Shown one piece after another: positions 1 to 14,192 of a stretch of 64,000 bases of DNA. This DNA comes from Leifsonia williamsii (lineage in GTDB: Bacteria; Actinomycetota; Actinomycetes; Actinomycetales; Microbacteriaceae), in NCBI RefSeq assembly GCF_030433685.1, contig NZ_JAROCF010000001.1:2356001-2420000 (forward strand), given 5' to 3'. The notes beneath the pieces were generated by a model. That model was not told the origin of the DNA and made no database searches. It worked only from the letters and a program-made list of their open reading frames with translations. Every line of letters starts with the position of its first letter. Position 1 is the first letter of the stretch. A program made the translations under genes and the position numbers.

Positions 1-1
1 G

Positions 2-223
2 AAGGCCCTGGCCGAGGGTGGCACGAGCTTCGACGCCCAGTACGTCAACGTGAACGGCACCTCCGGCTACTTCGCCCACAGCCTCAACGTCTACGGGCAA
101 CAGGGCAGGCCGTGCCCTCGCTGCGGCACCCCGATCGTGCGCGAGCAGTTCATGAACCGGGGGTCGCACTTCTGCCCGCGGTGTCAGCGCCTGCGGGCCC
201 GGCGCGAGCAATCCAGTCGATAG
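2..223 (+). CDS. mutM: Formamidopyrimidine-DNA glycosylase, C-terminal fragment
   Basis: Fpg/MutM excises oxidised purines such as 8-oxoguanine and nicks the abasic site. Only the last 73 residues lie in the window; the gene begins before base 1. The reading frame starting at base 2 contains [19 protein letters not shown] followed by the family's C-terminal zinc finger, CPRC, 16 residues, then CPRC (fragment residues 38, 41, 58, 61), which contacts DNA opposite the lesion. It ends in TAG at 221-223. In related actinobacteria mutM usually follows rnc and precedes smc; here smc is about 18 kb downstream. Confidence 0.95.
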
Positions 224-270
224 GATAACTCGATGTGCGCGGCGCCTACAGCGGTGCCGTTTTCGCCCCG

Positions 271-276
271 AGGAGG
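271..276 (+). promoter_or_regulatory. Shine-Dalgarno AGGAGG before an ATT codon
   Basis: A perfect AGGAGG sits 5 nt before an in-frame ATT at 282. No ATG or GTG exists in this frame between the upstream stop at 153-155 and codon 420. This ribosome binding site is the main argument that translation of the restriction-modification gene begins at ATT 282. Confidence 0.7.
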
Positions 277-281
277 CCGCA

Positions 282-2915
282 ATTTCGACTGCACCACATG
301 ACCGGAGTACCGATGTATACCCGATCCTGAATGAAGAAGGAAAGTACATCTGTCTGACTGATGGAGCGCTGCTCCCGGCGACTCCTGAAGAGGCAGTTCG
401 CCAGGGATTCATCGCGGTCTTGCGGAACGAGTACGGATACCCGGCGAACCGCATCCGGCGCGAAGTTCCGATCCATCACGGAAGCAGCGAGCTCACGGGA
501 AAGGACGGCACAGCGGTACGGGCGGACCTCGTTGTCTACGCCGATGCTGTTGCCGCCGCCAAGCGTGACCAGGGTCGGATCACCTTCGTAGTCGAATGCA
601 AGAAGCCTGACGTTAAGTCCGGTTATCAACAGTTGGTCAGCTACATCTTCTCCACGAATGCGCCAGGCGGTGTCTGGACGAACGGCATGGAAGGCGATGG
701 CGCCGACACGAGGTTTTACCGCGTGGACCGGAAAATCGGGCAGCTGTTGCCCGTAGCGGAGCTTCCTCGGGCCGACGAAACCTGGGGCGCGGTCAGTCGG
801 AGAAAGAAAGCAGAACTCGAAAAACCACACGATATCCGCCGCTTGTTCCGCTTGTGCAATAGCAAGTTGTACGGCCGCGGAATGGAGAACTACGACTTCG
901 ACCTGACGATGGATATGGTGCGGATCCTCCTCGCCAAAATCCATGATGAGTCGTCCGCCGGCGACTACCCGGACTTCTACATCTCCCAGGACGAGTATGA
1001 GAGCGCCGATGGGCGTGCGGCCGCAGCCGCGCGCGTGCGGTCGCTTTTCGAGCAGTTCGCAGAACGAAATCGCGAAGTGTTCCCCGAGGGCGAGAAGATC
1101 GAAGTGCCCGACTCGGCGATCGTCGAGGTGATCACAGTTCTACAGCCGTGGTCACTCGTCGTGGGCTATCAAGATGCCGATGATTGGGACGTGATGGGTG
1201 CGGCTTACGAGCAGTACACCCACCAAAACCTGAAGCGTCAGCGAGGTCAGTTCTTCACGAACCGGCTCATCGTCTCGGCGATGGTGCGGATCGTGGATCC
1301 CATGGTCGGAGAGAAGGTCCTCGATCCCGCCGGGGGTTCCGGGGGCTTCGTAACGGCGGCGTTCCGTTATGTTCGCCAGGCCGTCTTGGAGTCGACGCAG
1401 CCTGGCAGTCCGCAGCGTGAGCGACAGCTGGACGACGCGAAGAACGACATCTTCTTGTCCGAGATCACTCCGCGACTCGTTAAGCTCGCTAAGACCGCCA
1501 TGCTGCTGAACGGAGACGGACATGCAGGCATGACGAGAGGAAATTCTCTCGGTCCGTACGAGGAGCTTGACCCGTGGATCCAGTCGCGTTGCTCCCGTGG
1601 CGTTCCGAAGGTGATCCTCTCCAACCCGCCGTTCGCAGGCCAGGGCGAGTCCCGCATCACAGATCCACATATTCTTGCCCAGTACGAGACGGCCAAGCGG
1701 ACGGTCGTTTCCAGGGTTACCGGAATCCCTAGCGCAGAGCTGATGCCGCACCAGAGCCCGGAGCTTCTCTTCTTTGAGCGTTCGCTGGACTGGCTCGCCG
1801 AAGGCGGTCGAATGGGGATCGTCCTGCCCAAGGCGTTCCTCGACACGGCGCAGGCTTCGCGAGCGCGGCAGCTGCTTTTCGACAACGCGTACCTGGATGG
1901 CGTTGTCACGCTTCACAAGGACTCGTTCCAGCCCGACACCGGCGTGCGGACCTGCATCGTATTTCTGACGAAGAAGACCGCCGAGCAGCGGGAGCAGCTC
2001 GAAGATGATTACGAAATCTTCATGGCCGTCTCTCAGAAGATCGGTCAGACCTCCGAGGGAGTGCCAATCTTCGTTCTCGACGATGATGGTACGGCCACCG
2101 CCCGGATCGATCACGACCTCGATGAGATCGTGAGCGATTTCAAGGCGCTCCGTCGCGGAACTCTGGTGCCATCGCAGTTCCGATACGCCGTCAAGCGCTC
2201 CGACCTCGACGAGCGTCTGAACATCAACCCGCAGTATTACTCGCCCCACCTCAACGAGTCGATCGCGACTGTTCGCCGTTTCGATGAACTCGACGGATGG
2301 TCCGTGGTGACCCTCGGGCAGATCGAGAAAGGCATCTCGATCTTCAAAGGACCGCGTCTGAAAACCGAGAATGTGATCGTTCCGGAGGCCGAAGCCGGCA
2401 AGGAGGTTGTGGGGTACTACACGCCATCGGCGATGCTGCAGGACAAACGAGACTCCGCCAAATACGTCGATCTCGCACGAGCCAATGCAAAGCAGTTACG
2501 GAACTTCAAGACTGTCACTGTTCGGGAAGGCGACCTTCTGCTCACGCGATCCGGTTCCATCGGCAGGCTAGCCTATGTCTCGAGCGTCATGGACGGGCAG
2601 ATCGTGTCCGACGACATGATCCGAGTACGCATTCCATCGGAGGAGATTCGGGCGTACGTCGCCGCATTCCTGCTGTCGGATAATGCCGCAGCTCAGATGC
2701 TGATGAACGAGTATGGCTCGATCCAGCAGCACCTGGAGCCCGGCCACGTCCGTGACCTTCTGATCCCGGTGCCGGACGACTGGGCCGACGCTGCGGAATT
2801 GGTAGCGAACGGACGCGCGTTCATGAAGGCGAAGGAAGTCTCGGATCAGGCGATGCACGCTCTCCGAATCAAGGGGTTCGACAGCGGCATCAGCGACCTT
2901 CTCGAAAACGCCTAA
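282..2915 (+). CDS. Single-chain restriction-modification enzyme (HsdR-N nuclease, N6-adenine methylase, specificity domain), ATT start
   Basis: Predicted type IIG-like enzyme that would cut, methylate and recognise DNA in one polypeptide (877 residues from ATT 282). Residues 1-150 resemble the HsdR N-terminal nuclease: RADLVVYAD (Asp82) and ECK (Glu105, Lys107) give a PD-(D/E)XK core. Residues 290-600 are an N6-adenine methylase with DPAGGSGGF (348-356, motif I) and NPPF (448-451, motif IV). Residues from about 675 resemble one HsdS target-recognition half (TVREGDLLLTRSGSIGRLAYV). No separate hsdR or hsdS lies nearby. A start at TTG 420 would remove 46 residues that read as genuine family sequence (YPILNEEGKYICLTDG, PEEAVRQGFIAVLRNEYGYP). 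Codon use (many GAA, AAA, TAT) is less GC-biased than its neighbours, suggesting transfer. A hairpin follows the stop. Sequence error or an inactivating start mutation remains possible. Confidence 0.85.
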   Translation: MSTAPHDRSTDVYPILNEEGKYICLTDGALLPATPEEAVRQGFIAVLRNEYGYPANRIRREVPIHHGSSELTGKDGTAVRADLVVYADAVAAAKRDQGRITFVVECKKPDVKSGYQQLVSYIFSTNAPGGVWTNGMEGDGADTRFYRVDRKIGQLLPVAELPRADETWGAVSRRKKAELEKPHDIRRLFRLCNSKLYGRGMENYDFDLTMDMVRILLAKIHDESSAGDYPDFYISQDEYESADGRAAAAARVRSLFEQFAERNREVFPEGEKIEVPDSAIVEVITVLQPWSLVVGYQDADDWDVMGAAYEQYTHQNLKRQRGQFFTNRLIVSAMVRIVDPMVGEKVLDPAGGSGGFVTAAFRYVRQAVLESTQPGSPQRERQLDDAKNDIFLSEITPRLVKLAKTAMLLNGDGHAGMTRGNSLGPYEELDPWIQSRCSRGVPKVILSNPPFAGQGESRITDPHILAQYETAKRTVVSRVTGIPSAELMPHQSPELLFFERSLDWLAEGGRMGIVLPKAFLDTAQASRARQLLFDNAYLDGVVTLHKDSFQPDTGVRTCIVFLTKKTAEQREQLEDDYEIFMAVSQKIGQTSEGVPIFVLDDDGTATARIDHDLDEIVSDFKALRRGTLVPSQFRYAVKRSDLDERLNINPQYYSPHLNESIATVRRFDELDGWSVVTLGQIEKGISIFKGPRLKTENVIVPEAEAGKEVVGYYTPSAMLQDKRDSAKYVDLARANAKQLRNFKTVTVREGDLLLTRSGSIGRLAYVSSVMDGQIVSDDMIRVRIPSEEIRAYVAAFLLSDNAAAQMLMNEYGSIQQHLEPGHVRDLLIPVPDDWADAAELVANGRAFMKAKEVSDQAMHALRIKGFDSGISDLLENA

Positions 2916-2955
2916 AGCTCGTCTGGGGGCGTTCGCAACTGCGTCAGGAACGAAG

Positions 2956-2996
2956 ATGGCCCCCGCCCGAGATCAACGATCTCTGGCGGGGGCCAT
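2956..2996. terminator. Bidirectional hairpin between convergent genes
   Basis: Perfect 12-bp arms (ATGGCCCCCGCC and its complement, 2956-2967 and 2985-2996) enclose a further AGATC-AAC-GATCT stem. It lies between the convergent restriction-modification gene and ridA. There is no long T tract, so the terminator role is inferred from position and stability. Confidence 0.7.
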
Positions 2997-3016
2997 TGAC
3001 TTCTCCGAGGAGGGCC

Positions 3017-3400
3017 TCACCCCTGCGGCAGCGCCGCCACCACGTCGATCTCGACGAGAATATTCGCCAGCTGCGACCCCACGGTCGTCCGCACCGGGTA
3101 CGGCGCCGTGAAGAACTCCTCGTAGGCCGCGTTGAACTCGGCGAAGTCGGCGAGGTCCTGGAGGTGCACGGTCGACTTCACGACGTCGGCGAACGTCAGG
3201 CCGTGCACCGCGAGCACCTTCTCGATGTTGCGCAGCACCTGGCGGGTCTGGTCGCCCACGTTGTCGGCGATCGCGTTGTCGTTCGCGGCGTCCTGCGGGC
3301 CGAACCCGGCGGTGTAGAGGAAGCCGTTCGCGACGACGCCGTGGCTGTAGGGTCCGGCGGGGGCGGGTGCGCCCTCGGCGTAGAAGCCGGTCTTCGGCAT
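3017..3400 (-). CDS. ridA: RidA/YjgF-family enamine/imine deaminase
   Basis: RidA hydrolyses reactive 2-aminoacrylate-type enamines and imines released by PLP-dependent dehydratases to 2-oxoacids and ammonia. This 127-residue protein has normal family length, the N-terminal PAPAGPYSHGV signature and the C-terminal YPVRTTVGSQLA motif with the carboxylate-binding Arg104. It is the last gene of a minus-strand operon (transporter, PLP dehydratase, deacylase, ridA), 50 nt after the deacylase stop. Placement behind a D-serine-dehydratase-like enzyme suggests it processes that enzyme's imine product. ATG start at 3400. Confidence 0.92.
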   Translation of the reverse strand: MPKTGFYAEGAPAPAGPYSHGVVANGFLYTAGFGPQDAANDNAIADNVGDQTRQVLRNIEKVLAVHGLTFADVVKSTVHLQDLADFAEFNAAYEEFFTAPYPVRTTVGSQLANILVEIDVVAALPQG

Positions 3401-3450
3401 GGTGTTGTTCCTTTCTGTTGACAACAGGGGTGATCCCCGAGCGGGGACGT

Positions 3451-5058
3451 TCAGGGGCGCCCGGCGGCGGGCAAGGGGCCGGCCCGGCGCAGGCCGCGGC
3501 CGGGCAGAGCGCCGGTCGGCTCGCCGGCGGCGAGGACCCGGACCCCGCCCACGAAGACGTCGTCGATTCCGACGGCCGTCTCGCGCGGACGCTCGTAGGT
3601 GGCGAGGTCGGCCACGGCCGACGGGTCCACGACCGCGAGGTCGGCGACCGCTCCCGGCGCGACGGCGCCGCGCCGCTCGAGGCCGAATCGGCGGGCCGGC
3701 AGCGCCGAGAGGTGGTGGACGGCGTCGGCCCAGCTCCACGCGCCCAGGTCGCGCACGAACTCGCGAAGGTAGCGGGCGAAGGTGCCGGCCGCGCGCGGGT
3801 GCGGGTGCGCGCCGATGAAGATGCCGTCCGAGCCGCCGGTGTGCGCCGGGTGCGAGAAGACGCGGGCGAGCTCGGTGCTGGAGCGCGGGCTCCGCACCGC
3901 CATCACCGCGCTGCACTCGAGCCACGACGCCGCGAGCACATCGAGCGCGAAGTCGATCGGGGTGGTGGCGGCGCGCTCGGCGGCGGCGCGCAGCGTGAGC
4001 CCGTGCGCCCAGGCGGGGCCGGGGGAGGCGATGTGTGCCAGCGTGATCATGTCGGGCCAGTCGGGGCCGAGGCTGGCGCTCTGGGACGCCCTCCGCTCGC
4101 CGACCTCCCGCAGCCAGGCGCGCCGCGACGGGTCCGCGAGCACGGCGACGGCCTCCGCGCGGGGCAGTGCCGACACCTCCGGCGGCAGGAGGGGCATGCC
4201 GAGCAGGGTGCAGCCGCGGGTGTACGGGTACGCGTCGAAGGTCGCGTCCACGCCGGCGTCCTCGAGCGCGGCGAGCTGGCCCAGGAGGATGTCGGCGTCG
4301 GCGTGGAAGTGCGAGACGTGCACCGGCAACGGCGCGCCGGCCTCCTGCTGCGCCCACCGGGCGATGTCCACGATCTCCGCGATCCCCGCCGCCGTGTTCG
4401 ACTCGTAGCCGCCGCGCATGTGGGTGACGTAGACACCGCCCGCAGCGGCGACGGGAGCGCAGAGGGCCGCGATCTCGGCGGCGTCCTGGAAGACCCCGGG
4501 CACGTAGTCGAGCCCCGTCGACAGGCCGAGCGCGCCCGCGGCCATCCCCTCGGCGACGAGGGCGGCCATGCGTCGCCGCTCGTCGTCGCTCGCCGGGTGG
4601 TCGTGGCGGCCGCAGACCTCGAACCGCACGGTCCCGGCTGGCACGAGGTACCCGGCGTTGATCGGGGAGGCGCCGTCGACGGCCGAGAGGAAGGAGGCCG
4701 CACCCCCGCCGCGATAGGAGGGGTGCGGCCCGTTGATGGCCGCGAAGTACTCGGTCGCGTATGCGCCGTCGCCGGGCGCGTACGACACGCCGTCCTGCCC
4801 GGCGATGACGGAGGTGACGCCCTGGCGCAGCAGCGCACGGGTGACCTCGGGGTCGCCGAGCAGGCCGTCGGCGTGGGAGTGGGCGTCCACGAAGCCGGGG
4901 AGGACGAACCGGCCGGAGACGTCCAGCACGTCGTCGGCGGGATCGTGCCCGACCGTCCCGACCTGGGCGATGTCGCCGCCCTCGATCGAGACATCGGCGC
5001 GAACGGGCCCGTCGGCGCCGATCACCGATCCGCCGCGCAGCACGATCCGTGTGCTCAT
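3451..5058 (-). CDS. N-acyl-D-amino-acid deacylase (amidohydrolase)
   Basis: Metal-dependent amidohydrolase that hydrolyses N-acylated D-amino acids to free D-amino acid and carboxylate. In 535 residues it shows the HxH ligands in DAHSHADG (His60, His62), THMRGG (His212), VHVSHFHADAD (His249) and the SDG...HPHPRAAGTFARYL block (Asp410), all hallmarks of the D-aminoacylase family. The usual Cys ligand loop (GNCG in typical members) reads GQDG, with Asp88 in place of Cys. The start MSTRIVLRGG at 5058 follows the upstream gene's stop by 11 nt, so the two are probably co-translated. Substrate is not determined by sequence; context suggests an N-acyl sugar amino acid such as N-acetyl-D-glucosaminate. 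Confidence 0.88.
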   Translation of the reverse strand: MSTRIVLRGGSVIGADGPVRADVSIEGGDIAQVGTVGHDPADDVLDVSGRFVLPGFVDAHSHADGLLGDPEVTRALLRQGVTSVIAGQDGVSYAPGDGAYATEYFAAINGPHPSYRGGGAASFLSAVDGASPINAGYLVPAGTVRFEVCGRHDHPASDDERRRMAALVAEGMAAGALGLSTGLDYVPGVFQDAAEIAALCAPVAAAGGVYVTHMRGGYESNTAAGIAEIVDIARWAQQEAGAPLPVHVSHFHADADILLGQLAALEDAGVDATFDAYPYTRGCTLLGMPLLPPEVSALPRAEAVAVLADPSRRAWLREVGERRASQSASLGPDWPDMITLAHIASPGPAWAHGLTLRAAAERAATTPIDFALDVLAASWLECSAVMAVRSPRSSTELARVFSHPAHTGGSDGIFIGAHPHPRAAGTFARYLREFVRDLGAWSWADAVHHLSALPARRFGLERRGAVAPGAVADLAVVDPSAVADLATYERPRETAVGIDDVFVGGVRVLAAGEPTGALPGRGLRRAGPLPAAGRP

Positions 5059-5069
5059 GCTGCGCCCCC

Positions 5070-6416
5070 TCAGAACCACGTGCGGACGAGGTCGACGACG
5101 AGGTCGGAGTCCGCCGACGCGACGACGGGCAGCAGGCGCCACTTGTCGAAGGCCGTGCACGGGTGCGACAGGCCCAGCCGGATCTCCGCCCCGATCGGCA
5201 GGTGCTCCTCCGAGCGCACGTACGAGTGCTGGTCGTTCATGGCGGACACCGTGGCCTGGAGGGGGCGCCACGGCTCCGACGCGTCGATGCGCCACGCCCG
5301 CGGGATGGGGAGCCCCTCGTCGTAGGGGAAGTCCCGCTTGCCCCCGTCGACCAGGGCGAGGCCCGGCTCCGGACTCGACACCACGCGGGCGAACCCGTGC
5401 AGGGCGTTGACGAACCGCGGTGCCTCCGCAGTCTCCCCACCCGCGCCGGAGGAGGCTCCCTCATCGAAGGGGGAGATGCCGCGGTAGAAGCCGTCGTCGT
5501 GCGTGATGTACGCGCCCGAGCGCAGGGTGAAGCGCGTGCGCCCGTCGCGGGCGGCGCCCTCCCAAACGCGCGCGACGATGTCGAAGTAGGCGCTGCCTCC
5601 CGCTGTCACCACGAGGTCGCCGTCGTCGTAGAGCGGGGCGAGCGCGCCGTGCAGGTCGAGCTGCGCCTCGAGGTACGCCGTCACGGCGGAGAGGGAGGCG
5701 GGGGAGCGGTCGTGGCCGAGGCTGCCCTCGTAGCCGGAGACACCCGCGAGGCGCAGCACCGGGGAGGCGGCGATGCGCTCGGCGACCGCGACGGCCTCCG
5801 CGGCCGAGCGCGCGCCGGTCCGGCCGCCGGCGGCGCCAAGCTCGACGCAGACGTCGACCGCGCGCGGTGCACCGCCGGCGATGAGGCCCGCCTCCATCGC
5901 CTCCACCGTGGCGAGGGAGTCGGCCCAGCACACGAACCGGAAGTCCGGGTCCGCCAGCTCGCCGGCGAGCCAGGCCAGCGACCGCGGGTCGACGGCGGCG
6001 TTGGCCAACATGATCGACGTCAGGCCGAGGTCGCGCCCGGTGCGCACCTGACCCATCGTCGCGAGGGTGATGCCGGTCGCGCCGGCGTCGAGCTGGCGCT
6101 GCCACAGGGCCGGGGCCATCGTCGTCTTGCCGTGTGGCATGAGATCGAAGCCGCGCTCGGCGCACCAGGCCGCCATCGTCGCGATGTTGGCGGTCATCGC
6201 GGCGTCGTCGAGAGCGATGAGGGGAGTCCAGAATTCGCGCAGCCGCGGCCCCGTCGCCAGGAACTCGGCGACCGTGCGGCCGACCGCCCGGTCGGGCAGG
6301 CCCTTGTCACGCGTGGTCAGCACGTCGCGTGCCGTCAGCACGTCGCGTGCCGTCAGCACGTCGCGTGCCGTCAGCACCTCGTGTGCGGTCGGGTACGCAT
6401 CCTCGGCGCGGTTCAT
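5070..6416 (-). CDS. D-serine dehydratase-like PLP enzyme (fold type III)
   Basis: Alanine-racemase-fold PLP enzyme of the D-serine dehydratase / D-threonine aldolase group. It would eliminate water from a D-3-hydroxy-2-amino acid to give a 2-oxoacid and ammonia. The PLP lysine is in LMPHGKTTM (Lys97), and a C-terminal SHPCTAFDKW carries the His418/Cys420 pair used by this family for a metal ion. There are 448 residues; ATG 6416 has a GAGGAGGAG ribosome site. Residues 14-37 are four tandem copies of VLTARD encoded by an 18-bp repeat, an unusual N-terminal extension outside the catalytic fold. With KDG kinase and KDPG aldolase genes next door, D-glucosaminate is a plausible substrate (inference). 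Confidence 0.85.
   Translation of the reverse strand: MNRAEDAYPTAHEVLTARDVLTARDVLTARDVLTTRDKGLPDRAVGRTVAEFLATGPRLREFWTPLIALDDAAMTANIATMAAWCAERGFDLMPHGKTTMAPALWQRQLDAGATGITLATMGQVRTGRDLGLTSIMLANAAVDPRSLAWLAGELADPDFRFVCWADSLATVEAMEAGLIAGGAPRAVDVCVELGAAGGRTGARSAAEAVAVAERIAASPVLRLAGVSGYEGSLGHDRSPASLSAVTAYLEAQLDLHGALAPLYDDGDLVVTAGGSAYFDIVARVWEGAARDGRTRFTLRSGAYITHDDGFYRGISPFDEGASSGAGGETAEAPRFVNALHGFARVVSSPEPGLALVDGGKRDFPYDEGLPIPRAWRIDASEPWRPLQATVSAMNDQHSYVRSEEHLPIGAEIRLGLSHPCTAFDKWRLLPVVASADSDLVVDLVRTWF
6316..6387. repeat. Four tandem 18-bp repeats inside the PLP dehydratase gene
   Basis: Three identical units GTCAGCACGTCGCGTGCC (6316-6333, 6334-6351, 6352-6369) are followed by a degenerate fourth (6370-6387). 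Because 18 is divisible by 3 the expansion is in frame and encodes repeats of VLTARD near the protein N-terminus. The units are contiguous with no spacers. Confidence 0.95.
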
Positions 6417-6433
6417 CCTGGACTCCTCCTCGC

Positions 6434-7789
6434 TCAGCGGGACTTCTTGACGGTAGCGGTCGCGGCCAGCTCGTGCAGGCGACCCGCGCCCTCGACATCC
6501 GGCCGGATCGACGCGCTCAGCGTGGCGATCACGCCGACGATCGAGATGACCGCCGCGTACGCGACCACCGGCCAGAACGACCCGCCCGCCGCAGCGACGA
6601 GCGCGGTGCAGATCAGCGGGGCGAGCCCGCCGCCGAGCGTGTTCGACACCTGATATCCGATGTTGACGCCCGTCGTGCGCGCCTCCGGGTCGAACATCTC
6701 GGCGAGCATCGTCGACAGCGTCGCCTGCATGGCGACACCGAACACGACGAAGCCGAGGATCTGGCCCAGCCAGATCAGCCACATGTTGCCGGTGCTGAAC
6801 AGCATGAAGGCCGGATAGACCATCAGGGCGAAGCCGACGCAGCCGATGATGTACACCGTGCGGCGGCCGATGCGGTCCGAGATCGCGCCCCACAGCGGGG
6901 CGACGACGATCTGCAGCAGGCCGACGATCATCGTGCCGGCGAAGCCCATCCACGCCGGGAGGTTCTTGTCCGACACCATGAAGGCCAGCCCGTAGGTGAG
7001 CACGACGTAGCCCGCGATCGACTGCGGGAGGCCGATCAGGATGCCCATGATCGCGTTCTTCGGGTGCCGGAACGCCTCGACCAGCGGGTTCGCCTTCTTG
7101 CCGGTGGCGGCGATCTGGATCGCCTGCGTGTCGAGGAACTCCTCCGACTCCTCCAGGTGCCGGCGCAGCACCACCGCGACGATCGCCAGCACGAGCGAGA
7201 ACACGAACGGGATGCGCCAGCCCCACTGCAGGAACCACGACTCGGGGGTGAGCCCGAGCGCCGCCATGAACCCGCCGGAGACGACGTTGGCGATGCCGGC
7301 GCCGCTGATCAGGAACGCGCCGTAGAGCCCGCGCCGGCCGGTGGGCGCCGCCTCGACGACCATCGTCGCCGCGCCGCCCATCTCGCCGCCGACGAAGAAG
7401 CCCTGCAGGAGCCGGAAGAACAGCAGGAGCAGCGGTGCCGCAATCCCGATGGCCTGGTCGGAGGGGATCAGGCCGATGCCGGCGGTCGCGAGGCCCATCC
7501 CGATGACGGTGCTCATGAGCACGGTCTTGCGGCCGATCCTGTCGCCGACGAGACCCCAGATGATGCCGCCCACCGGGCGCAGGAAGAAGCCGACGGCGAA
7601 GGTCGCGAACGACGCGAGCTGGGCGATCACGGGGTCGTTCGACGAGAAGAAGACCGTCGGGAAGACCGCGGCGGCCGCCAGGCCGTACAGGTAGTAGTCG
7701 TAGTACTCGATGAGGGTGCCGATGGCGCCCCCGGCGACCGTCTTGCGTTGCGTGCGGGACAGACCCCGCTGTGCGGTCACAGTCGTCAT
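6434..7789 (-). CDS. MFS transporter, metabolite:H+ symporter type
   Basis: Twelve-helix major facilitator of the metabolite:H+ symporter family (ShiA/ProP/KgtP relatives), which usually imports organic acids or zwitterions. The 451-residue protein has the family opening GGAIGTLIEYYDYYLYGLAAA, loop motif GLVGDRIGRKTVLM and its second-half counterpart GAISDRIGRRTVYI. It is the first gene of the minus-strand operon (17 nt before the PLP dehydratase) and reads divergently from the regulator at 7903. It probably supplies the operon's substrate; the substrate itself cannot be read from sequence. ATG 7789 has an AGGAGG-like site. Confidence 0.88.
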   Translation of the reverse strand: MTTVTAQRGLSRTQRKTVAGGAIGTLIEYYDYYLYGLAAAAVFPTVFFSSNDPVIAQLASFATFAVGFFLRPVGGIIWGLVGDRIGRKTVLMSTVIGMGLATAGIGLIPSDQAIGIAAPLLLLFFRLLQGFFVGGEMGGAATMVVEAAPTGRRGLYGAFLISGAGIANVVSGGFMAALGLTPESWFLQWGWRIPFVFSLVLAIVAVVLRRHLEESEEFLDTQAIQIAATGKKANPLVEAFRHPKNAIMGILIGLPQSIAGYVVLTYGLAFMVSDKNLPAWMGFAGTMIVGLLQIVVAPLWGAISDRIGRRTVYIIGCVGFALMVYPAFMLFSTGNMWLIWLGQILGFVVFGVAMQATLSTMLAEMFDPEARTTGVNIGYQVSNTLGGGLAPLICTALVAAAGGSFWPVVAYAAVISIVGVIATLSASIRPDVEGAGRLHELAATATVKKSR

Positions 7790-7843
7790 CCGAGCCTCCT
7801 TGCTGGGTGGGGTGTGTTGAGTGGGGACAAGCTAACAGGCGAA

Positions 7844-7871
7844 TAGACATTCTGTCCAACTGCCGTATTAT
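7844..7871 (+). promoter_or_regulatory. Promoter of the regulator operon with overlapping dyad
   Basis: TAGACA (7844-7849) and TATTAT (7866-7871) are separated by 16 bp, a good housekeeping-type promoter for this GC-rich genome, reading toward the ATG at 7903. The dyad GACA-TTC-TGTC (7846-7856) overlaps the -35 box and is the best candidate operator between the divergent operons. Regulation by the adjacent regulator is inference. Confidence 0.5.
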
Positions 7872-7902
7872 TTGTTCAGTACCCTACCGTCGAGGGAGAG
7901 CG

Positions 7903-8625
7903 ATGAGGATCAGAACTGCGGCCGAGCACGCCACGGCGGCCCTCGCCGACGACGCAGCGCGTCAGACCTACGAGAGCGCCGAGGAGGTCCTGCGCCTCTA
8001 CCGCCCGGTGATGCGGGCGCTCGCCGCGGCCGCCGGCCCCACGACCGAGATCGTGCTGCACAACCTCGACGGCGCCGACGTCGACCTGGGCCACACGATC
8101 GTGGCGATCGAGAACGGCCACGTCACCGGGCGCTCCGTCGGCGGCCCCTCCACCTCGCTCGGGCTCGATGTGCTGAAGGACCGCCGAGGCGACCACGACG
8201 CGTACGGCTACACCGGTCACACCAGCGACGGGCGCGAGCTGCGCTGCTCCTCGGTCTACTTCCACAACGCCGCGGGCGACATCATCGCCTCGCTGTGCGT
8301 CAACGTCGACCTCAGCCCGCTGCAGCAGGCCCGCAACGTGCTCGCCGCGCTCCTGCCGCCAGAAGGGGCCGCCCCCGATGCGCCCCGGGAGCACTTCGGC
8401 AGCGACCTGGTGAGCGTCATGGATTCGATGATCAGCGACGCGATCCGCGAGATCGGCCGCCCGGTCGAGAGCATGTCGCGCGACGACAAGATCACCGTCC
8501 TCGAGCGGCTCGACCAGCGCGGCGCGACGCAGATGCGCAAGTCGGTGGAGGCCATCGCCAAGCGCCTCGGCATCTCGCGGGTGACCGCGTACAACTACCT
8601 GGAGGAGGCGAGGGCGCGACGATGA
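7903..8625 (+). CDS. YheO/DauR-type transcriptional regulator
   Basis: Ligand-sensing regulator of 240 residues. Residues about 20-140 match the YheO-type PAS domain (RPVMRALAAAAGPTTEIVLHNL, VGGPSTSLGLDVLK, SSVYFHNAAGDIIASLCVNVD). Residues about 195-240 form the matching helix-turn-helix ending GATQMRKSVEAIAKRLGISRVTAYNYLEEAR. Relatives such as DauR control D-amino-acid catabolism, which fits the neighbouring D-amino-acid-type genes. It reads divergently from the transporter operon and overlaps the kinase start by ATGA. ATG 7903 is preceded by GAGGGAGAG; an upstream in-frame extension would run into the promoter. Confidence 0.88.
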   Translation: MRIRTAAEHATAALADDAARQTYESAEEVLRLYRPVMRALAAAAGPTTEIVLHNLDGADVDLGHTIVAIENGHVTGRSVGGPSTSLGLDVLKDRRGDHDAYGYTGHTSDGRELRCSSVYFHNAAGDIIASLCVNVDLSPLQQARNVLAALLPPEGAAPDAPREHFGSDLVSVMDSMISDAIREIGRPVESMSRDDKITVLERLDQRGATQMRKSVEAIAKRLGISRVTAYNYLEEARARR

Positions 8626-9539
8626 CCGCCTCCGACACGCCCGCCCTGATCGCCCTCGGAGAGACGATGGCGCTGCTCACCCCGCGCGACGCGACACGCC
8701 TCGCCGACGCGGACGACCTCCGCCTCACCATCGGCGGAGCGGAGTCGAACGTCGCCGCGCACGTCGCCGCCCACGGCCACCGCACGGCGTGGGTCAGCGC
8801 CCTGGGCGACGATGTGCTCGGCCACCGGGTGCACCGCATGGTCGCTGAACTGGGCGTCGACACCCGCTGGGTGGTCTTCGACCCGGATGCGCCCACCGGC
8901 GTCTACTTCAAGGACCCCGGCCATGGCGTCCTCTATTACCGCGCCGGTTCCGCCGCGTCGCGGATGACGGCCGAGAGCGTCGCTCGCGTCCCGCTCGACG
9001 AGGCATCGATCGTGCACGTCTCCGGCATCACCCCGGCGCTCTCCGGCGGCTGCTCCCGCATGATCGACGCGGTCATCGACCGGGTGGCCGCGGCCGACGG
9101 CACCGAGCTGAGCTTCGACGTCAACCACCGCGCGGCGCTGTGGGAGGCTGCCGCTGCCGCGCCGGTGCTGCTCGCGCTCGCGAACCGGTCCGACATCGTC
9201 TTCGTCGGGCTCGACGAGGCCGAGACGCTGTGGGGGTGCGCGACCCCGGACGAGGTGCGGGCGCTGATCCCGGCCCCCGCCCACCTCATCGTCAAGGACG
9301 GCGACGTCGGCGCGACGGAGTTCACCGCCGACGGCGCGGTGTTCGTGCCCGCCATCCCGACGGAGGTCGTGGAGGCGGTCGGCGCGGGCGACGCGTTCGC
9401 CGCGGGCTGGCTCGCGGCGCGGCTCGCGGGGAAGGGCGCGGCCGAGCGGCTGCTGTCCGGCCACCGGCGCGCCCACCTCGTGCTGCAGTCCACCGACGAC
9501 GTCGTCGGCATCGCCGCAGAAGGAATCGAGACCCGATGA
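8622..9539 (+). CDS. kdgK: PfkB-family sugar kinase, probably 2-keto-3-deoxygluconate kinase
   Basis: Ribokinase/PfkB-fold kinase (305 residues), likely making KDPG from 2-keto-3-deoxygluconate and ATP. The sugar-binding GGAESNVAAHVAAHG (38-52) and DVNHR (166-170), together with the anion-hole motif GAGDAFAAGW (254-263, catalytic Asp257), are typical of KDG kinases. The next gene encodes a KDPG aldolase, which supports the substrate. It starts ATG at 8622, overlapping the regulator stop, and its own stop overlaps the aldolase start by ATGA, so the three genes are translationally coupled. Confidence 0.87.
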   Translation: MTASDTPALIALGETMALLTPRDATRLADADDLRLTIGGAESNVAAHVAAHGHRTAWVSALGDDVLGHRVHRMVAELGVDTRWVVFDPDAPTGVYFKDPGHGVLYYRAGSAASRMTAESVARVPLDEASIVHVSGITPALSGGCSRMIDAVIDRVAAADGTELSFDVNHRAALWEAAAAAPVLLALANRSDIVFVGLDEAETLWGCATPDEVRALIPAPAHLIVKDGDVGATEFTADGAVFVPAIPTEVVEAVGAGDAFAAGWLAARLAGKGAAERLLSGHRRAHLVLQSTDDVVGIAAEGIETR

Positions 9540-10177
9540 ACGTTACAGAGAGAGGGACGACCGTGGACAACGCAGCATTCGAGGAGCTGTTCGGCGCAGC
9601 GCCGCTCATGGCGATCCTCCGCGGCATGGGCGCCGAGCGCAGCCTCGCGGTGTCGACGACGGCGTGGGACCTCGGCATCGACGTCGTCGAGCTGCCGATC
9701 CAGAGCCTGGACGACGTGGAGGCGCTGCGCGTCGTCGCGGCCGCGGCGAAGGAGCGCGGCAAGGTCGTCGGCGCCGGCACGGTGGTCTCCCTCGAGCACG
9801 TGCAGCAGGCCGTCTCCGCAGGGGCCGCGTTCACCGTCAGCCCCGGCCTCGACCTCGACGTGGTGCGCGCCTCGCACGACGCGGGCCTGCTCAGCATGCC
9901 CGGCGTCGCGACGGCGAGCGAGGTGCAGCTCGCGATGAAGGCGGGGCTGACCTGGCTGAAGGCGTTCCCGGCCTCGGTGCTCGGCACCTCCTGGCTCGGC
10001 GCCATGCGCGGGCCGTTCCCCGCCGCGCGCTTCGTCACGACCGGCGGCATGAGCGCGGCGAACGCGGGCGACTTCCTCCGCGCCGGCGCCCGCGTCGTCG
10101 CGGTCGGCTCTGCCCTCGAAGATCCGGAGCAGCTCCCGCAGCTGGCCCGCCTGCTCGACCCTGCGGCGCGGGCGTGA
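9536..10177 (+). CDS. eda: KDPG/KHG aldolase
   Basis: Class I aldolase that splits 2-keto-3-deoxy-6-phosphogluconate into pyruvate and glyceraldehyde 3-phosphate. The 213-residue protein has MAILRGMG, the catalytic Glu52 in DVVELPIQ, GAGTVVS, and the Schiff-base Lys142 in WLKAFPAS; TGGMSAAN forms the phosphate site. ATG 9536 overlaps the kinase stop (ATGA). GTG 9563 has a better ribosome site (GAGAGGGA) and would start at VDNAAFEELF, so the true start is uncertain by nine codons. Together with the kinase this is a complete lower KDG route. Confidence 0.9.
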   Translation: MNVTERGTTVDNAAFEELFGAAPLMAILRGMGAERSLAVSTTAWDLGIDVVELPIQSLDDVEALRVVAAAAKERGKVVGAGTVVSLEHVQQAVSAGAAFTVSPGLDLDVVRASHDAGLLSMPGVATASEVQLAMKAGLTWLKAFPASVLGTSWLGAMRGPFPAARFVTTGGMSAANAGDFLRAGARVVAVGSALEDPEQLPQLARLLDPAARA

Positions 10178-10617
10178 GCAGCGCACCGGCGCCCGCCGAC
10201 CTGGAGGTGCGGCTGGCGCACGTCGAGGCGCGCCTGGCGTACGAGCTCGACATCGTGGCCGCGGCGGAGGCCGTCGAAGCGGGGGAGGCCGTCCTCGTGG
10301 ACACGCGCAGGCGCGCCTCCTGGGACCACGGGCACATCGCCGGCGCCCTGCACCTCCCGAGCCCGGAGCTCGACGCGCGCATCGGCGAGCTGCCCCGCGA
10401 CCGCACCCTGGTCGTCTACGGCTGGGGCCCCGGCTGCAACGGCGCGACGGCCACCGCCCGGACGCTGCTCGCGGCGGGTCTCGACGTACGGGAGCTGCTG
10501 GGCGGGTACGAGTACTGGGTGCGCAACGGCTTCCCGACGGAGGCCGCGGGCGTGGTGACGCGCGCCACGCCCGACCCGCTGGTGACGGCCGACGACGGAA
10601 CAGCACGCGACCACTGA
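10174..10617 (+). CDS. Rhodanese-like sulfurtransferase domain protein
   Basis: Single rhodanese domain in 147 residues: VLVDTRRRASWDHGHIAGALHLP, then the active-site loop GPGCNGATATA with Cys88 in position to carry a persulfide, and GLDVRELLGGYEYWVRNGFP near the end. It starts GTG 10174, overlapping the aldolase stop by GTGA, so it is the fourth gene of the regulator-kinase-aldolase operon. Role in the pathway is unknown; such domains are often carried as accessory genes in catabolic operons. Confidence 0.85.
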   Translation: MSSAPAPADLEVRLAHVEARLAYELDIVAAAEAVEAGEAVLVDTRRRASWDHGHIAGALHLPSPELDARIGELPRDRTLVVYGWGPGCNGATATARTLLAAGLDVRELLGGYEYWVRNGFPTEAAGVVTRATPDPLVTADDGTARDH

Positions 10618-10667
10618 GCGACGCCGACCACTGAGCGACGCCGACCACTGAAGGCCGACCACTGAAG
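10609..10667. repeat. 17-bp tandem repeats after the rhodanese gene
   Basis: GACCACTGAGCGACGCC occurs at 10609-10625 and 10626-10642, followed by two shorter copies (GACCACTGAAG at 10643 and 10657). The first copy contains the rhodanese stop codon, so the duplication seems to have grown from the gene end. The remainder of 10618-10760 holds a weak GACGCCCC/GGGGCGTC hairpin (10675-10711). Confidence 0.85.
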
Positions 10668-10760
10668 ATCGGCGGACGCCCCACGGAGACGCCCGAACGG
10701 TCCGGGGCGTCGCGGCTACGCTGCCGAGGTCCCCGACCCCTTCCGTGAAAGCAGTCCGCC

Positions 10761-11540
10761 GTGTCCGACGCCCCCCTCACCTCCGCCATCCCCGTGATCC
10801 GCCCCGCGGATCGGACGCCGGGGCTGCGGCGCCGCCTCGCCGCCGAGGCGGCCGGCACCTTCGTCCTCGTCTTCGCCGTCGTCGGCACCGCGGTGTTCGC
10901 GGCAGGGTTCACCGGGGCAGACGGCATGAACGTCGGCTTCACCGGGGTGGCGCTCGCGCTGGGCCTCGGCGTCGTCGTCTCGGCGTACGCCTTCGGCCCG
11001 GTGTCGGGCGGCCACTTCAACCCGGCGGTCACCCTCGGGCTCGCGGTCGCCGGCCGGTTCGCGTGGCGGCATGTCGGGCTCTACGCGCTGGCGCAGCTCG
11101 TCGGCGCGGTGCTCGCGACAACCGTGCTGCTCCTCATCGCGGCGGGAGGCCCGCACGGCTTCCTCGCGTCCGCGCAGCAGAGCGGGTTCGCCTCCATCGG
11201 CTCCGGCCCACTCTCGCCGGGCGGCTTCTCGATCGGCTCCGTGTTCCTCGTGGAGGCCGTCGGCACCTTCGTCTTCGTGGCCGTGATCCTCGGCGTGACG
11301 AGCGCCGGCGCCGAGAACGCGTTCGCGCCGCTCGCCATCGGCCTGACGCTGACCATGCTCGCCCTGGTCTCGATCCCGGTCTCCGACACCTCCCTCAACC
11401 CCGCCCGCGCGCTCGCGTCCGCGCTCTACGGCGGCCAGGAGGCGCTGGCCCAGGTGTGGCTCGCGATCGTCCCGCCGCTGATCGGCGCCGCGATCGCCGG
11501 TGCCGTCATCCCGCGCGTCGTCGCACCGCGCGAGCGCTGA
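10761..11540 (+). CDS. Aquaporin-family channel (MIP)
   Basis: Six-helix water or small-solute channel, 259 residues, with both NPA half-helices: SGGHFNPAVT (87-89) and TSLNPARAL (213-215). The second motif and the overall length resemble AqpZ-type water channels more than glycerol facilitators. GTG start at 10761; a TACGCT -10 candidate at 10717-10722 lies about 40 nt upstream, and a hairpin separates it from the rhodanese gene, so it is probably transcribed alone. It is followed convergently by the GNAT gene. Confidence 0.9.
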   Translation: MSDAPLTSAIPVIRPADRTPGLRRRLAAEAAGTFVLVFAVVGTAVFAAGFTGADGMNVGFTGVALALGLGVVVSAYAFGPVSGGHFNPAVTLGLAVAGRFAWRHVGLYALAQLVGAVLATTVLLLIAAGGPHGFLASAQQSGFASIGSGPLSPGGFSIGSVFLVEAVGTFVFVAVILGVTSAGAENAFAPLAIGLTLTMLALVSIPVSDTSLNPARALASALYGGQEALAQVWLAIVPPLIGAAIAGAVIPRVVAPRER

Positions 11541-11567
11541 CCGACGCACCGGCCGCGTGCGTCGGCC

Positions 11568-12635
11568 TCACAGCTCCTTCTGCCACGACCCCGTCAGCGC
11601 GTGCGGCCGGAAGCCGAACGCGCGGTTGATCGCGAGCATCGGGTCGTTCTCGTCGGCGTTCCAGGTGAGCACCCGGCGCACCCGCGGGGACCGGCGCTGC
11701 AGCTCGTGGAGGTTGTGCAGCTTCACGAGCGTGCCGAGCCGGTGCCCGCGGTGGTCGCGGGCGACGAGCGTGTCGTACTGCTCCGCCTTCTCCCCATCGG
11801 CCGGGACCGCCAGCTCGGTGTAGGCGGCGAGCTCGCCCGTCGCCAGGTGCTGCGCCGCCGTCACCAGCAGCGGCTCGTCGCGCCGGGCGAGCTCCGCCTC
11901 CTGCGCGCGCACCCGCGCGGCCGTCCACTCCTCGCGGTCCACGGCGAGCGCGGCCTGCGGCGCGTCGATCGACATCCGGGCCTTCAGCGCGGCGAACCCG
12001 TCCACCAGCTCCGCGGGCGCCGCCCCGAACCACGACACCACCCGGTAGCCCTGGACCGTGGAGGCGGTGCTCGCGAGCGCCGCCTCCCGCGCCGCCGGCA
12101 GCGGCAGCGTGAGCTCGCTGGACCGCTCGATCTGACCCAGCCGGTAGCCGTGCCGCAGGGCGAACCGCACCGACGGGTCCGCGCGTGGCAGCCCGGTCGC
12201 GCCGACCGGCGCATGCACCCACGGCCCCTCCGCCGGCAGCGACGCCACCGGATGCTCGGTGTACACGTGCACCACCCGCCGGCCGCCGTCGGCCGCGAGC
12301 TCCTCCCCGGCGCCGAGCAGTGCGGAGCCGATGCCGCGGCCGCGCAGCGCCGGCGCGACGTCGACCAGCAGGGAGGCGGTCTCCGCCTGCTCGTCGAGGG
12401 GGAACTCGGCCAGCACGCGGCCCACGATCGCGCCCTCCTCGATGGCGACCAGCACGATCTTCTCGATGTACTCCTGTGCGCTGAGCGAAGCCAGCGCCTC
12501 CTCGGCGGTCTCGACGAAGTCGTCGTTGCCCCAGAGGCCCACGGCGATCCCGTTGAGCACCCCGATCAGCTCCTCGAAGGCGGCCGACTCGGGCGTGCCG
12601 CACGCGTCAGGGAGCGGAAGACGGCGGATCTCCAC
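11568..12635 (-). CDS. Tandem-domain GNAT acetyltransferase
   Basis: Protein of 355 residues with two Gcn5-related acetyltransferase domains. The N-terminal half has the acetyl-CoA loop LRGRGIGSALLGAGEELA after a beta strand (ASLLVDVAPA). The C-terminal half has HRGHRLGTLVKLHNLHELQ followed by TWNADENDPMLAINRAFGFRP, the usual end of this fold. The architecture resembles mycothiol-synthase-like and related actinobacterial GNATs, but the substrate is not identifiable. GTG 12635 is chosen because GAGGAGGT precedes it; the upstream ATG extension has no coding character. Confidence 0.85.
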   Translation of the reverse strand: MEIRRLPLPDACGTPESAAFEELIGVLNGIAVGLWGNDDFVETAEEALASLSAQEYIEKIVLVAIEEGAIVGRVLAEFPLDEQAETASLLVDVAPALRGRGIGSALLGAGEELAADGGRRVVHVYTEHPVASLPAEGPWVHAPVGATGLPRADPSVRFALRHGYRLGQIERSSELTLPLPAAREAALASTASTVQGYRVVSWFGAAPAELVDGFAALKARMSIDAPQAALAVDREEWTAARVRAQEAELARRDEPLLVTAAQHLATGELAAYTELAVPADGEKAEQYDTLVARDHRGHRLGTLVKLHNLHELQRRSPRVRRVLTWNADENDPMLAINRAFGFRPHALTGSWQKEL

Positions 12636-12750
12636 GGCTGGCACCTCCTCGAGCCTCACACGCCCCAGCAGCGTAACCCCGGGACCGCGCGCGTGTGAAA
12701 AGCGGCGACCGGTTTCGTTTCGATCGTGTAAATCTGCGCGTCCCGGTCGG

Positions 12751-12778
12751 TTGCAAATGCTTGCATTCCCTGTAGTCT
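12751..12778 (+). promoter_or_regulatory. livJ promoter with overlapping palindrome
   Basis: TTGCAA (12751-12756), 16 bp, then TAGTCT (12773-12778) form a promoter directed at livJ. A dyad TGCAA-ATGC-TTGCA (12752-12765) overlaps the -35 region and is a candidate operator. The rest of 12636-12850 shows no gene. Confidence 0.5.
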
Positions 12779-12850
12779 CAGCACACATATTCGTGGTGCG
12801 ACGCGGCAACCACGCCGCGTTCGCGACGAATTCACGTCGAGAGGCAAGAG

Positions 12851-14080
12851 ATGCTACGGAAGAAAGTGATCATCGGTGCGGCTGTTGCAGCGTCAGCCGC
12901 GCTGTTCCTCGCGGGATGCGCCAACCAGGCGTCGACCGGGGGGTCCACGAGCGGCGGGAGCTCGAACAAGGTCGACATCCCCGCCATCACCTCGGTGGAC
13001 GTCCCGAAGGACGCCGTCCTCCCCGCGGGCGACGGAAAGGCCACCTGTCCTGCCGGCCTGACCATCGGTTACATCGGCGCGGAGACGGGCCCCAACGCCC
13101 AGCTCGGCATCAACATCTACAACGGGATCCAGCTCGCGCTCGACCAGCACAACGAGTCGAACAAGGACTGCCAGGTCGGCTTCAAGAAGTTCGACACCGA
13201 GGGCGACCCGAACAAGGCCACCGGCCCGGTCACCCAGGCCGTCAACGAGGCCGACATCATCGGCGTCGTCGGCCTCCCGTTCTCGGGCGAGTCGAAGGCC
13301 ACCGGCAACATCTTCGAGCAGCAGGGGCTGGTCCACATCACCCCGTCGGCCACCAACCCCGGCCTGACCCAGAACGGCTGGAAGACCTTCTTCCGCGGCC
13401 TCGGCAATGACGCCGTTCAGGGCCCGGCGGCGGCGAAGTTCCTCACCGACCAGCTGAAGGCCAAGAAGGTCTACCTCGTCCAGGACGACTCCGACTACGG
13501 CATCGGCCTCGGCACCCAGACCTCGAAGGCGCTCGGCGACGCGCTCGTCGGCACCGACAAGGTGACCACCGGCCAGAAGGACTTCTCCGCGGTGATCTCC
13601 AAGATCATCAACGCGAAGCCGGACGCCGTGTACTACGCGGGTTACTACGCCGAGGGCGCTCCGTTCGACCAGCAGCTGGTCTCGAAGGGCTTCAAGGGCA
13701 CCTTCGTCGCACCGGACGGCGTGAAGGACGACCAGTTCATCAAGCTGGCCGGCGACGCGTCGAGCAACGCGTACTTCACCTGCCCCTGCATCCCGGGTGA
13801 GCTCATCCCCGACTTCGAGGGCGCGTACAAGAAGCTCGCGAACGCCGAGCCCGGCACGTACTCGATCGAGGGCTACGACGCCACCACCGTCCTGCTCGCG
13901 GGCATCGACGCGGGCAAGACCACCCGCGCCGACCTCCTCGCCTGGGTCAAGGACTACGACAAGGACGGCCTGAGCAAGCACTACAAGTGGGACGCCACCG
14001 GTGAGCTCCAGGCTCCCGCCGTCTACGGCTACAAGGTCGAGAACGGCAAGATCGTCCCGATCGGAACCATCGGCGAATAA
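12851..14080 (+). CDS. livJ: Branched-chain amino-acid-type ABC transporter, substrate-binding lipoprotein
   Basis: Extracytoplasmic solute-binding protein of the Leu/Ile/Val (HAAT) family, 409 residues. An N-terminal signal ends in the lipobox LAGC with Cys23 as lipidation site, followed by a Gly/Ser linker. The periplasmic-binding fold is recognisable in IGAETGPNAQLGINIYNGIQLALDQHN, IIGVVGLPFSGESKATGNIF and YAGYYAEGAPFDQQL. It heads the liv operon; a strong hairpin lies between it and livH. The ligand may be a branched-chain or other hydrophobic amino acid, or an unrelated small solute, as the family is broad. Confidence 0.92.
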   Translation: MLRKKVIIGAAVAASAALFLAGCANQASTGGSTSGGSSNKVDIPAITSVDVPKDAVLPAGDGKATCPAGLTIGYIGAETGPNAQLGINIYNGIQLALDQHNESNKDCQVGFKKFDTEGDPNKATGPVTQAVNEADIIGVVGLPFSGESKATGNIFEQQGLVHITPSATNPGLTQNGWKTFFRGLGNDAVQGPAAAKFLTDQLKAKKVYLVQDDSDYGIGLGTQTSKALGDALVGTDKVTTGQKDFSAVISKIINAKPDAVYYAGYYAEGAPFDQQLVSKGFKGTFVAPDGVKDDQFIKLAGDASSNAYFTCPCIPGELIPDFEGAYKKLANAEPGTYSIEGYDATTVLLAGIDAGKTTRADLLAWVKDYDKDGLSKHYKWDATGELQAPAVYGYKVENGKIVPIGTIGE

Positions 14081-14092
14081 CCGGCACGTGAG

Positions 14093-14126
14093 GGTGCCGC
14101 GGGCCACCACCGTGGTCCGCGGCACC
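14093..14126 (+). terminator. Strong intercistronic hairpin between livJ and livH
   Basis: A 15-bp stem (14093-14107 with 14112-14126, one G-T pair) closes on the 4-nt loop CACC. There is no T tract. In binding-protein operons such a structure commonly stabilises the 3' end of the binding-protein message or partly terminates it, giving more LivJ than permease; that role is inferred. Confidence 0.75.
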
Positions 14127-14192
14127 CCACCGCGCTCCGCCTCCTCCCGCCGATCGGGTCCGCCCGGCCGGCACTGACCCCTGGAAGCTCGA

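Follow-up and report, generated by a model that had tools for sequence, protein, structure and literature searches.

A divergent gene cluster of Leifsonia williamsii as a candidate actinobacterial route for the catabolism of an oxidised N-acetylhexosamine

The window analyzed here, a 64-kb piece of the 3.89-Mb genome of Leifsonia williamsii, contains two divergent, tightly packed units (positions 3017-10617) comprising eight genes, all of which could be placed by Pfam. The leftward unit (minus strand) encodes a RidA-family enamine/imine deaminase of 127 aa (3017-3400; PF01042, 108.6 bits), an amidohydrolase of the D-aminoacylase family of 535 aa (3451-5058; PF07969, Amidohydro_3, 90.7 bits) that belongs to a clade referred to below as QDG, a D-serine-dehydratase-like fold-III pyridoxal phosphate (PLP) enzyme of 448 aa (5070-6416; PF14031, 59.8 bits) and a major facilitator superfamily metabolite:H+ symporter (MHS type; 6434-7789; 363 bits against TIGR00883, cut-off 443). 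The rightward unit (plus strand) encodes a YheO/DauR-type regulator with PAS_6 and HTH_22 domains (7903-8625; PF08348, 108 bits, and PF13309, 72 bits), a PfkB kinase (8622-9539; PF00294, 156 bits), a protein of the 2-keto-3-deoxy-6-phosphogluconate (KDPG)/2-keto-4-hydroxyglutarate (KHG) aldolase family (9536-10177; PF01081, 128 bits) and a rhodanese-domain protein (10174-10617; PF00581, 55 bits). Overlaps of 4 bp join the regulator to the kinase gene, the kinase to the aldolase gene and the aldolase to the rhodanese gene, which is translationally coupled to it. The contiguity of the first seven families (3017-10177), claimed in a preliminary description of this DNA, was borne out by the translations and by Pfam matches that all lie well above cut-off. 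The rhodanese gene is an eighth coupled gene that was missing from that description, and a homologue of it adjoins the cluster in the nearest relative (L047).

More specific models were repeatedly missed by score. The RidA protein reached 103.1 bits against TIGR00004 (cut-off 106.25), the symporter 304 bits against the shikimate-transporter model (cut-off 538), the aldolase 147.5 bits against TIGR01182 (cut-off 156), and the PfkB protein 162 bits against the NCBIfam model for 2-keto-3-deoxygluconate (KDG)/2-keto-3-deoxygalactonate (KDGal) kinases (cut-off 440). The gene labels are, therefore, to be read at the family level only, which is also the level at which the earlier designations "acid-type importer" and "KDG kinase" can be retained, with the specific models TIGR00883 and NF041332 failing to support them further. 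The divergent intergenic region (7790-7902) contains an imperfect palindrome, GACATTCTGTC, seen by eye, which may be an operator.

On balance, we favor the interpretation that this cluster is used to catabolize an N-acetylated 2-amino-2-deoxyaldonic acid, most likely N-acetyl-D-glucosaminate (2-acetamido-2-deoxy-D-gluconate, GlcNAc1A), an oxidised form of N-acetylglucosamine that arises when chitin is degraded. In the route that we infer, from the direction of transport through every reaction to regulation, the MHS symporter would bring in the free N-acetylated acid, the QDG-clade amidohydrolase (a proposed N-acetyl-2-amino-2-deoxyhexonate deacetylase) would release acetate, and the PLP enzyme (a proposed 2-amino-2-deoxyhexonate ammonia-lyase) would eliminate water across C2-C3 to give an enamine/imine, the hydrolysis of which to KDG and ammonia would be aided by RidA. 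The PfkB protein, a probable 2-keto-3-deoxyhexonate kinase, would convert KDG to KDPG, and the aldolase would cleave KDPG to pyruvate and glyceraldehyde-3-phosphate, both divergent units being presumably controlled by the YheO-type protein.

A marine chitin-oxidation route with this chemistry, which the preliminary description had mentioned, has been established by genetic and biochemical work and employs the same enzyme families. According to the published account (PMC9537276), the Ong pathway for GlcNAc1A in Pseudoalteromonas prydzensis involves ongB, ongC, ongD and kdgK: OngB frees acetate, OngC yields KDG and ammonia, KdgK phosphorylates KDG, and ongD, encoding a RidA protein of unknown role, is essential in the pathway. 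A putative KDPG aldolase is also encoded in the ong clusters of Vibrio, Klebsiella and Serratia. The structure of the P. prydzensis deacetylase (PpOngB) has been solved, and Ser292 and Gln298 are named as its specificity residues (PMC12017989).

Conservation of the gene set was surveyed in 297 genomes of the order, 84 of them with a deacylase match; 40 stretches around such matches, the window and three additional loci from plasmids were searched in six frames with reference proteins. Of the 42 loci (window included) that have a deacylase with Asp in place of a metal-binding Cys (Asp-type), 41 also contain the PLP enzyme and 40 contain RidA, with both occurring in 39. With the three loci found via the PLP-enzyme search (L034, L038 and L046) excluded, the PLP enzyme occurs in 38 of 39 and RidA in 37 of 39. 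The kinase and the aldolase were each found in 12 of the 42, the PLP enzyme, RidA, kinase and aldolase together in eight, GH20 in seven, YheO in six, and GntP and MHS in four each, while all eight neighbors are missing from the two loci whose deacylases are Cys-type. The association of the gene set exceeds chance. Within Actinomycetota, deacylase, PLP enzyme and RidA form a conserved trio, with which the kinase and aldolase recur. The latter two fall in separate branches of the deacylase tree (the window group, the Tsukamurella group and family f16, in which the matches are weaker, ~100 bits, and lie about 7-9 kb away), and regulators and transporters are exchanged among loci, YheO/MHS in some versus IclR/GntP in others. 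An annotated Tsukamurella record contains, contiguously, RidA, IclR, a sugar kinase, an "alanine racemase" (the PLP enzyme), a D-aminoacylase, a KDPG aldolase and a gluconate:H+ symporter; a GntP-type transporter is found in clusters of both the Tsukamurella and the Streptomyces type.

A second scan covered 80 loci from named genomes, 76 of them with a deacylase (the other four were dropped); some of its contigs are short, and it was seeded with linked loci. Among its 48 Asp-type loci, a kinase was found in 16, an aldolase in five and a GntP-type transporter in 13. A deacylase combining this Asp with His or Thr at the position of a carboxylate-binding Lys (Lys254) was accompanied by the PLP gene in 22 of 27 loci, compared to one of the 49 others, and the Cys-type loci had a PLP gene in a single case out of 25 (Azospirillum, L155). 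Judging by their record titles, these 22 PLP-linked loci are all actinobacterial, including those of Streptomyces, Lentzea, Mycolicibacterium, Actinokineospora, Curtobacterium, Brachybacterium, Promicromonospora and Cellulosimicrobium; the five without the PLP gene include a Rhodobacteraceae and a Dehalococcoidia record. The Asp at the Cys position was also considered as a cluster marker on its own and rejected, as Asp-type relatives whose records are titled, for example, Chloroflexi, SAR202, Anaerolineaceae and Clostridium show no PLP/RidA neighbor.

Clues to the substrate come from glycoside hydrolases and lytic polysaccharide monooxygenases (LPMO) in relatives. Among 80 genomes, at least 15 have a GH20 catalytic domain no more than 600 bp from the deacylase match, and at least 16 have one within 5 kb, for which uniform placement would predict 0.36 genomes. 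The genomes with an adjacent GH20 span four families and 11 genera, with most of them in family f9; named examples are Promicromonospora soli (L092) and Cellulosimicrobium funkei (L093). In three loci inspected closely (L068, L072 and L075) the GH20 stop codon overlaps the deacylase start, and in two (L081 and L103) GH20, deacylase, PLP enzyme, kinase, aldolase and RidA occur in one stretch, with GH20, kinase and aldolase confirmed by Pfam. Six called GH20 genes had no clear N-terminal signal peptide by eye (their starts are those of a rough gene caller), and peptide-type ATP-binding cassette (ABC) transporters lie near some of the GH20-linked loci. In family f9 (121 genomes), a deacylase is found in 63 genomes and a chitin-type LPMO in 65, distributed as both in 52, deacylase only in 11, LPMO only in 13 and neither in 45 (odds ratio 16). 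When only the 53 genomes with the closer deacylase type are counted, the respective figures are 45, 8, 20 and 48 (odds ratio 13.5). Counted by genus (n=25), deacylase and LPMO are distributed in this family as 16, 1, 2 and 6 (p=0.001). At the order level, 13 of the 16 genomes with adjacent GH20 have an LPMO, compared to 15 of the 64 others, and an LPMO match is also present in G111 (locus L047), the closest relative that shares the gene set of the window. Overall, these links favor an oxidised N-acetylhexosamine, with GlcNAc1A produced by LPMO action as the obvious candidate. The pathway proposed in the preliminary description is supported to that extent, the GntP, kinase and aldolase links in relatives pointing in the same direction.

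The deacylase itself is of a distinct kind. Its nearest named relatives are Microbacterium proteins (at most 81% identity), and it was aligned in a set of 52 rows. Apart from the window protein, this set comprises 41 deacylases of related actinobacterial loci, three that come from two other actinobacterial loci, another five of Gammaproteobacteria and a Betaproteobacterium, and two with solved structures, AfDam and PpOngB. The catalytic Asp368, His68/His70 and the carboxylate-binding Arg379 are present in all 52. On the other hand, in all 42 cluster deacylases the metal-binding Cys97 is replaced by Asp (the motif GNCG reading GQDG in 40 rows, GADG in one and GLDG in another) and Lys254 by His, Thr or Ala, so that in this alignment of sequences the subtype V metal site (Cys/His/His) is not found; the metal ligands predicted instead for the window protein are Asp89, His213 and His250. 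The same Asp and His recur in 119 of the 119 close homologues listed, with both metal-binding His retained. Site 292 of PpOngB is Thr or Ser within the QDG clade, and Gln never appears in the 298 column, which is uncertain because of insertions; position 226 of PpOngB was tried as a diagnostic and discarded, since two alignments disagree there. In the deacylase tree a branch with support of 100/99 separates the 42 QDG rows from the OngB rows, which are nested together with AfDam; as the root is not known, the tree shows separation rather than order of descent. The position of the window deacylase outside the OngB clade leads us to reject the possibility that the cluster is an Ong cluster by descent.

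The comparison of the PLP enzyme with its marine counterpart gives a mixed picture. Its best solved relative, 3gwq (211 bits), is also the best for a Pseudoalteromonas OngC, with which it has PHGKT and SHPC motifs in common. It is 31-37% identical to the three ong-type rows aligned. An HPC-type motif was found in 36 of 36 and the Lys motif in 34 of 36 actinobacterial PLP enzymes checked, the window's included, and its PLP-binding Lys and HxC motif are those of the D-serine dehydratase type rather than of D-threonine aldolase. We take this HxC to be a zinc motif. In a tree made by a quick method, five ong-type rows form a clade with actinobacterial rows on both sides, at moderate support. Close to its N terminus, the window enzyme has LTARDV units repeated in tandem and in frame (6300-6380; seen by eye).

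Several observations weigh against GlcNAc1A as the substrate or against the integrity of the pathway. As for the gene set, the kinase is missing from 30 of the 42 loci and the aldolase from 30 as well. The window deacylase scores D-aminoacylases (1m7j, 200 bits; 3gip, 178 bits) above PpOngB (9kb1, 123 bits) in the comparison with solved structures, has neither the Cys97 nor the Lys254 of OngB, and shows Thr at site 292 and Leu in the loosely aligned 298 column in place of the OngB Ser and Gln. The residues of the aldolase are mixed, Thr before GG being KDPG-like and strand 1 (LMAIL, compared with LIAIL) resembling that of 2-keto-3-deoxy-6-phosphogalactonate (KDPGal) aldolases; both the Thr161-type residue and the strand-1 pattern are given as markers of the two specificities in PMC4915726. 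No GH20 was detected by the six-frame search with reference proteins in positions 1-16000 of the window, and three GH20 matches were obtained for the host genome, the two with a listed place lying far from the window. Neither an LPMO_10 (PF03067) match nor a GH18 match above cut-off was found in the host genome (for GH18 there was a match below it), meaning that any GlcNAc1A used by this organism would have to be scavenged from what others produce. Among deacylase-bearing genomes, 52 of 80 have no LPMO match, 13 genomes of family f9 (five of them in genus g106) have an LPMO but no deacylase, and relatedness among genomes inflates all the GH20 and LPMO association tests. In general terms an oxidised N-acetylhexosamine is favored, and N-acetyl-D-glucosaminate, the substrate named in the preliminary description, is a likely candidate that the deacylase residues, the mixed aldolase, the LPMO content of the host and the many loci with no kinase or aldolase nearby count against.

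The mixed aldolase bears on a rival that keeps the same logic and changes the epimer or acyl form, namely N-acetyl-D-galactosaminate (via KDGal and KDPGal) or another 2-acylamido-2-deoxyhexonate. In its favor are the KDPGal-like strand 1 and the fact that N-acetylgalactosamine is also a substrate of GH20 enzymes. Galacto versions of such clusters may indeed exist: clusters of a Klebsiella pneumoniae plasmid (L042, 3661-10065) and of Comamonas (L044, 1-11778), in which an amino acid deaminase, a D-aminoacylase and RidA occur with genes annotated as KDPGal aldolase and 2-dehydro-3-deoxygalactonokinase, may encode a route for N-acetyl-D-galactosaminate. By eye, the Klebsiella deacylase resembles the solved 9g5m chain, and it keeps the Ser and Gln of OngB. 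However, the window kinase is of the PfkB family, its nearest solved structure being the KDG kinase 1v19 (111 bits), and the aldolase has the KDPG-like Thr at the 161 site; we regard this alternative as less likely.

We give a similarly low probability to a general salvage of N-acyl-D-amino acids (D-serine or D-threonine), with the kinase and aldolase forming an unrelated neighboring unit. The higher scores of the deacylase against D-aminoacylases than against OngB, the Thr at site 292 that it shares with them and the frequent absence of the kinase would fit such a function, as would the YheO/DauR-type regulator, which we assume to be of the D-amino-acid type. In Pantoea, Klebsiella variicola and Agrobacterium, PLP enzymes related to that of the window adjoin RidA and amino-acid ABC transporters in stretches that show no deacylase, kinase or aldolase, which suggests, also as a point against GlcNAc1A, that a PLP/RidA pair in the company of such transporters can serve another substrate. 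This arrangement, noted at L036 (4270-9143), L037 (4325-9137) and L045 (7284-11954), suggests a separate use for D-amino acids. Even marine OngC also deaminates D-serine and D-threonine (PMC9537276). Salvage, however, leaves the recurring kinase, aldolase, GntP and GH20 neighbors unexplained, and the deacylase does not have the Cys and Lys described as strictly conserved in D-aminoacylases and OngB. It is very hard to credit, finally, that the QDG protein is another amidohydrolase (e.g. a lactonase or a different amidase) in a cluster that degrades an amino acid sugar already in its free form. The changes at the metal ligand and at the carboxylate-binding Lys, together with a larger insertion, make the chemistry of the QDG protein unreadable by homology, but none of the 42 QDG rows has lost HxH, either His ligand, the catalytic Asp or the Arg.

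Returning to the oxidised amino sugar as substrate, the cluster is probably an actinobacterial variant of a known pathway, with a deacylase taken from another clade and assembled in parallel. Tentatively, one could go further and envisage a widespread actinobacterial route for oxidised chitin sugars, parallel to the marine one, in which a separate amidohydrolase clade with an Asp/His/His instead of a Cys/His/His metal site would have reached GlcNAc1A independently of OngB, in several Actinomycetota with a GH20 that would cut oxidised chitobiose intracellularly. Descriptions of oxidised chitin use past the LPMO step come from marine Gammaproteobacteria, and on land the complete pathway was found in Gammaproteobacteria and one Betaproteobacterium (PMC9537276). 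The genome screen in that study required >30% identity to at least four ong genes, and clusters such as this one, with a deacylase 28% identical to an OngB, could have escaped it. Full-text literature searches (for GlcNAc1A and for the enzyme combination), with most subscription papers outside their reach, showed no actinobacterial GlcNAc1A pathway among the papers listed. Within the accessible text of each paper, the pathway search terms were not found in a Streptomyces chitin study (PMC12370203), an Arthrobacter chitin study (PMC13106269) has no mention of GlcNAc1A or aminoacylase, the route could not be confirmed in an Aeromonas study (PMC11653859), and a different, hypothetical glucosaminate-6-phosphate route is given for Natrarchaeobius (PMC12343721). 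If correct, our interpretation would extend the route to Streptomyces, Mycolicibacterium, Microbacteriaceae, Promicromonospora and Cellulosimicrobium, would render the labels "D-aminoacylase" and "alanine racemase" in the Tsukamurella record misleading, and would provide a clear pair for studying one amidohydrolase family acting on the same substrate with two metal sites.

Outside the cluster, a large open reading frame adjoining it (420-2915) resembles, by eye, a restriction-modification methylase/specificity protein, and a second gene of the KDPG-aldolase family is present elsewhere in the host genome (3787328-3787885, L002).

Among known systems, the Salmonella D-glucosaminate-6-phosphate route also ends at KDPG but starts with phosphorylation and uses an unrelated ammonia-lyase, and the family of this ammonia-lyase is not among the Pfam matches of the window cluster. 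The D-aminoacylases AfDam (1M7J) and BbDam (3GIP) have the fold family, HxH, the two His ligands, the catalytic Asp, the carboxylate-binding Arg and Thr 292 in common with the window deacylase, which differs from them in Asp for the metal-binding Cys, His (Thr or Ala in relatives) for the carboxylate-binding Lys, a larger insertion (larger also than in a Pseudoalteromonas OngB) and an operon context appropriate for a hydroxy-amino acid and a keto-deoxy sugar. The Klebsiella and Comamonas clusters match the window in having a deacylase, deaminase, RidA, keto-deoxy sugar kinase and aldolase, and they differ in their Cys-type deacylases and in the galactonate-type (DgoK/DgoA) annotation of the kinase and aldolase. 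In contrast to the Ong system, the window cluster has MHS and YheO proteins in place of GH20, an SSS transporter, a TonB receptor and an RpiR regulator, its deacylase is of another clade with another predicted metal site, and the host has no LPMO match. What the two systems share, at the family level, is the presence in one cluster of a (for the window, proposed) deacetylase of the D-aminoacylase family, a fold-III PLP enzyme, RidA and a PfkB-type kinase.

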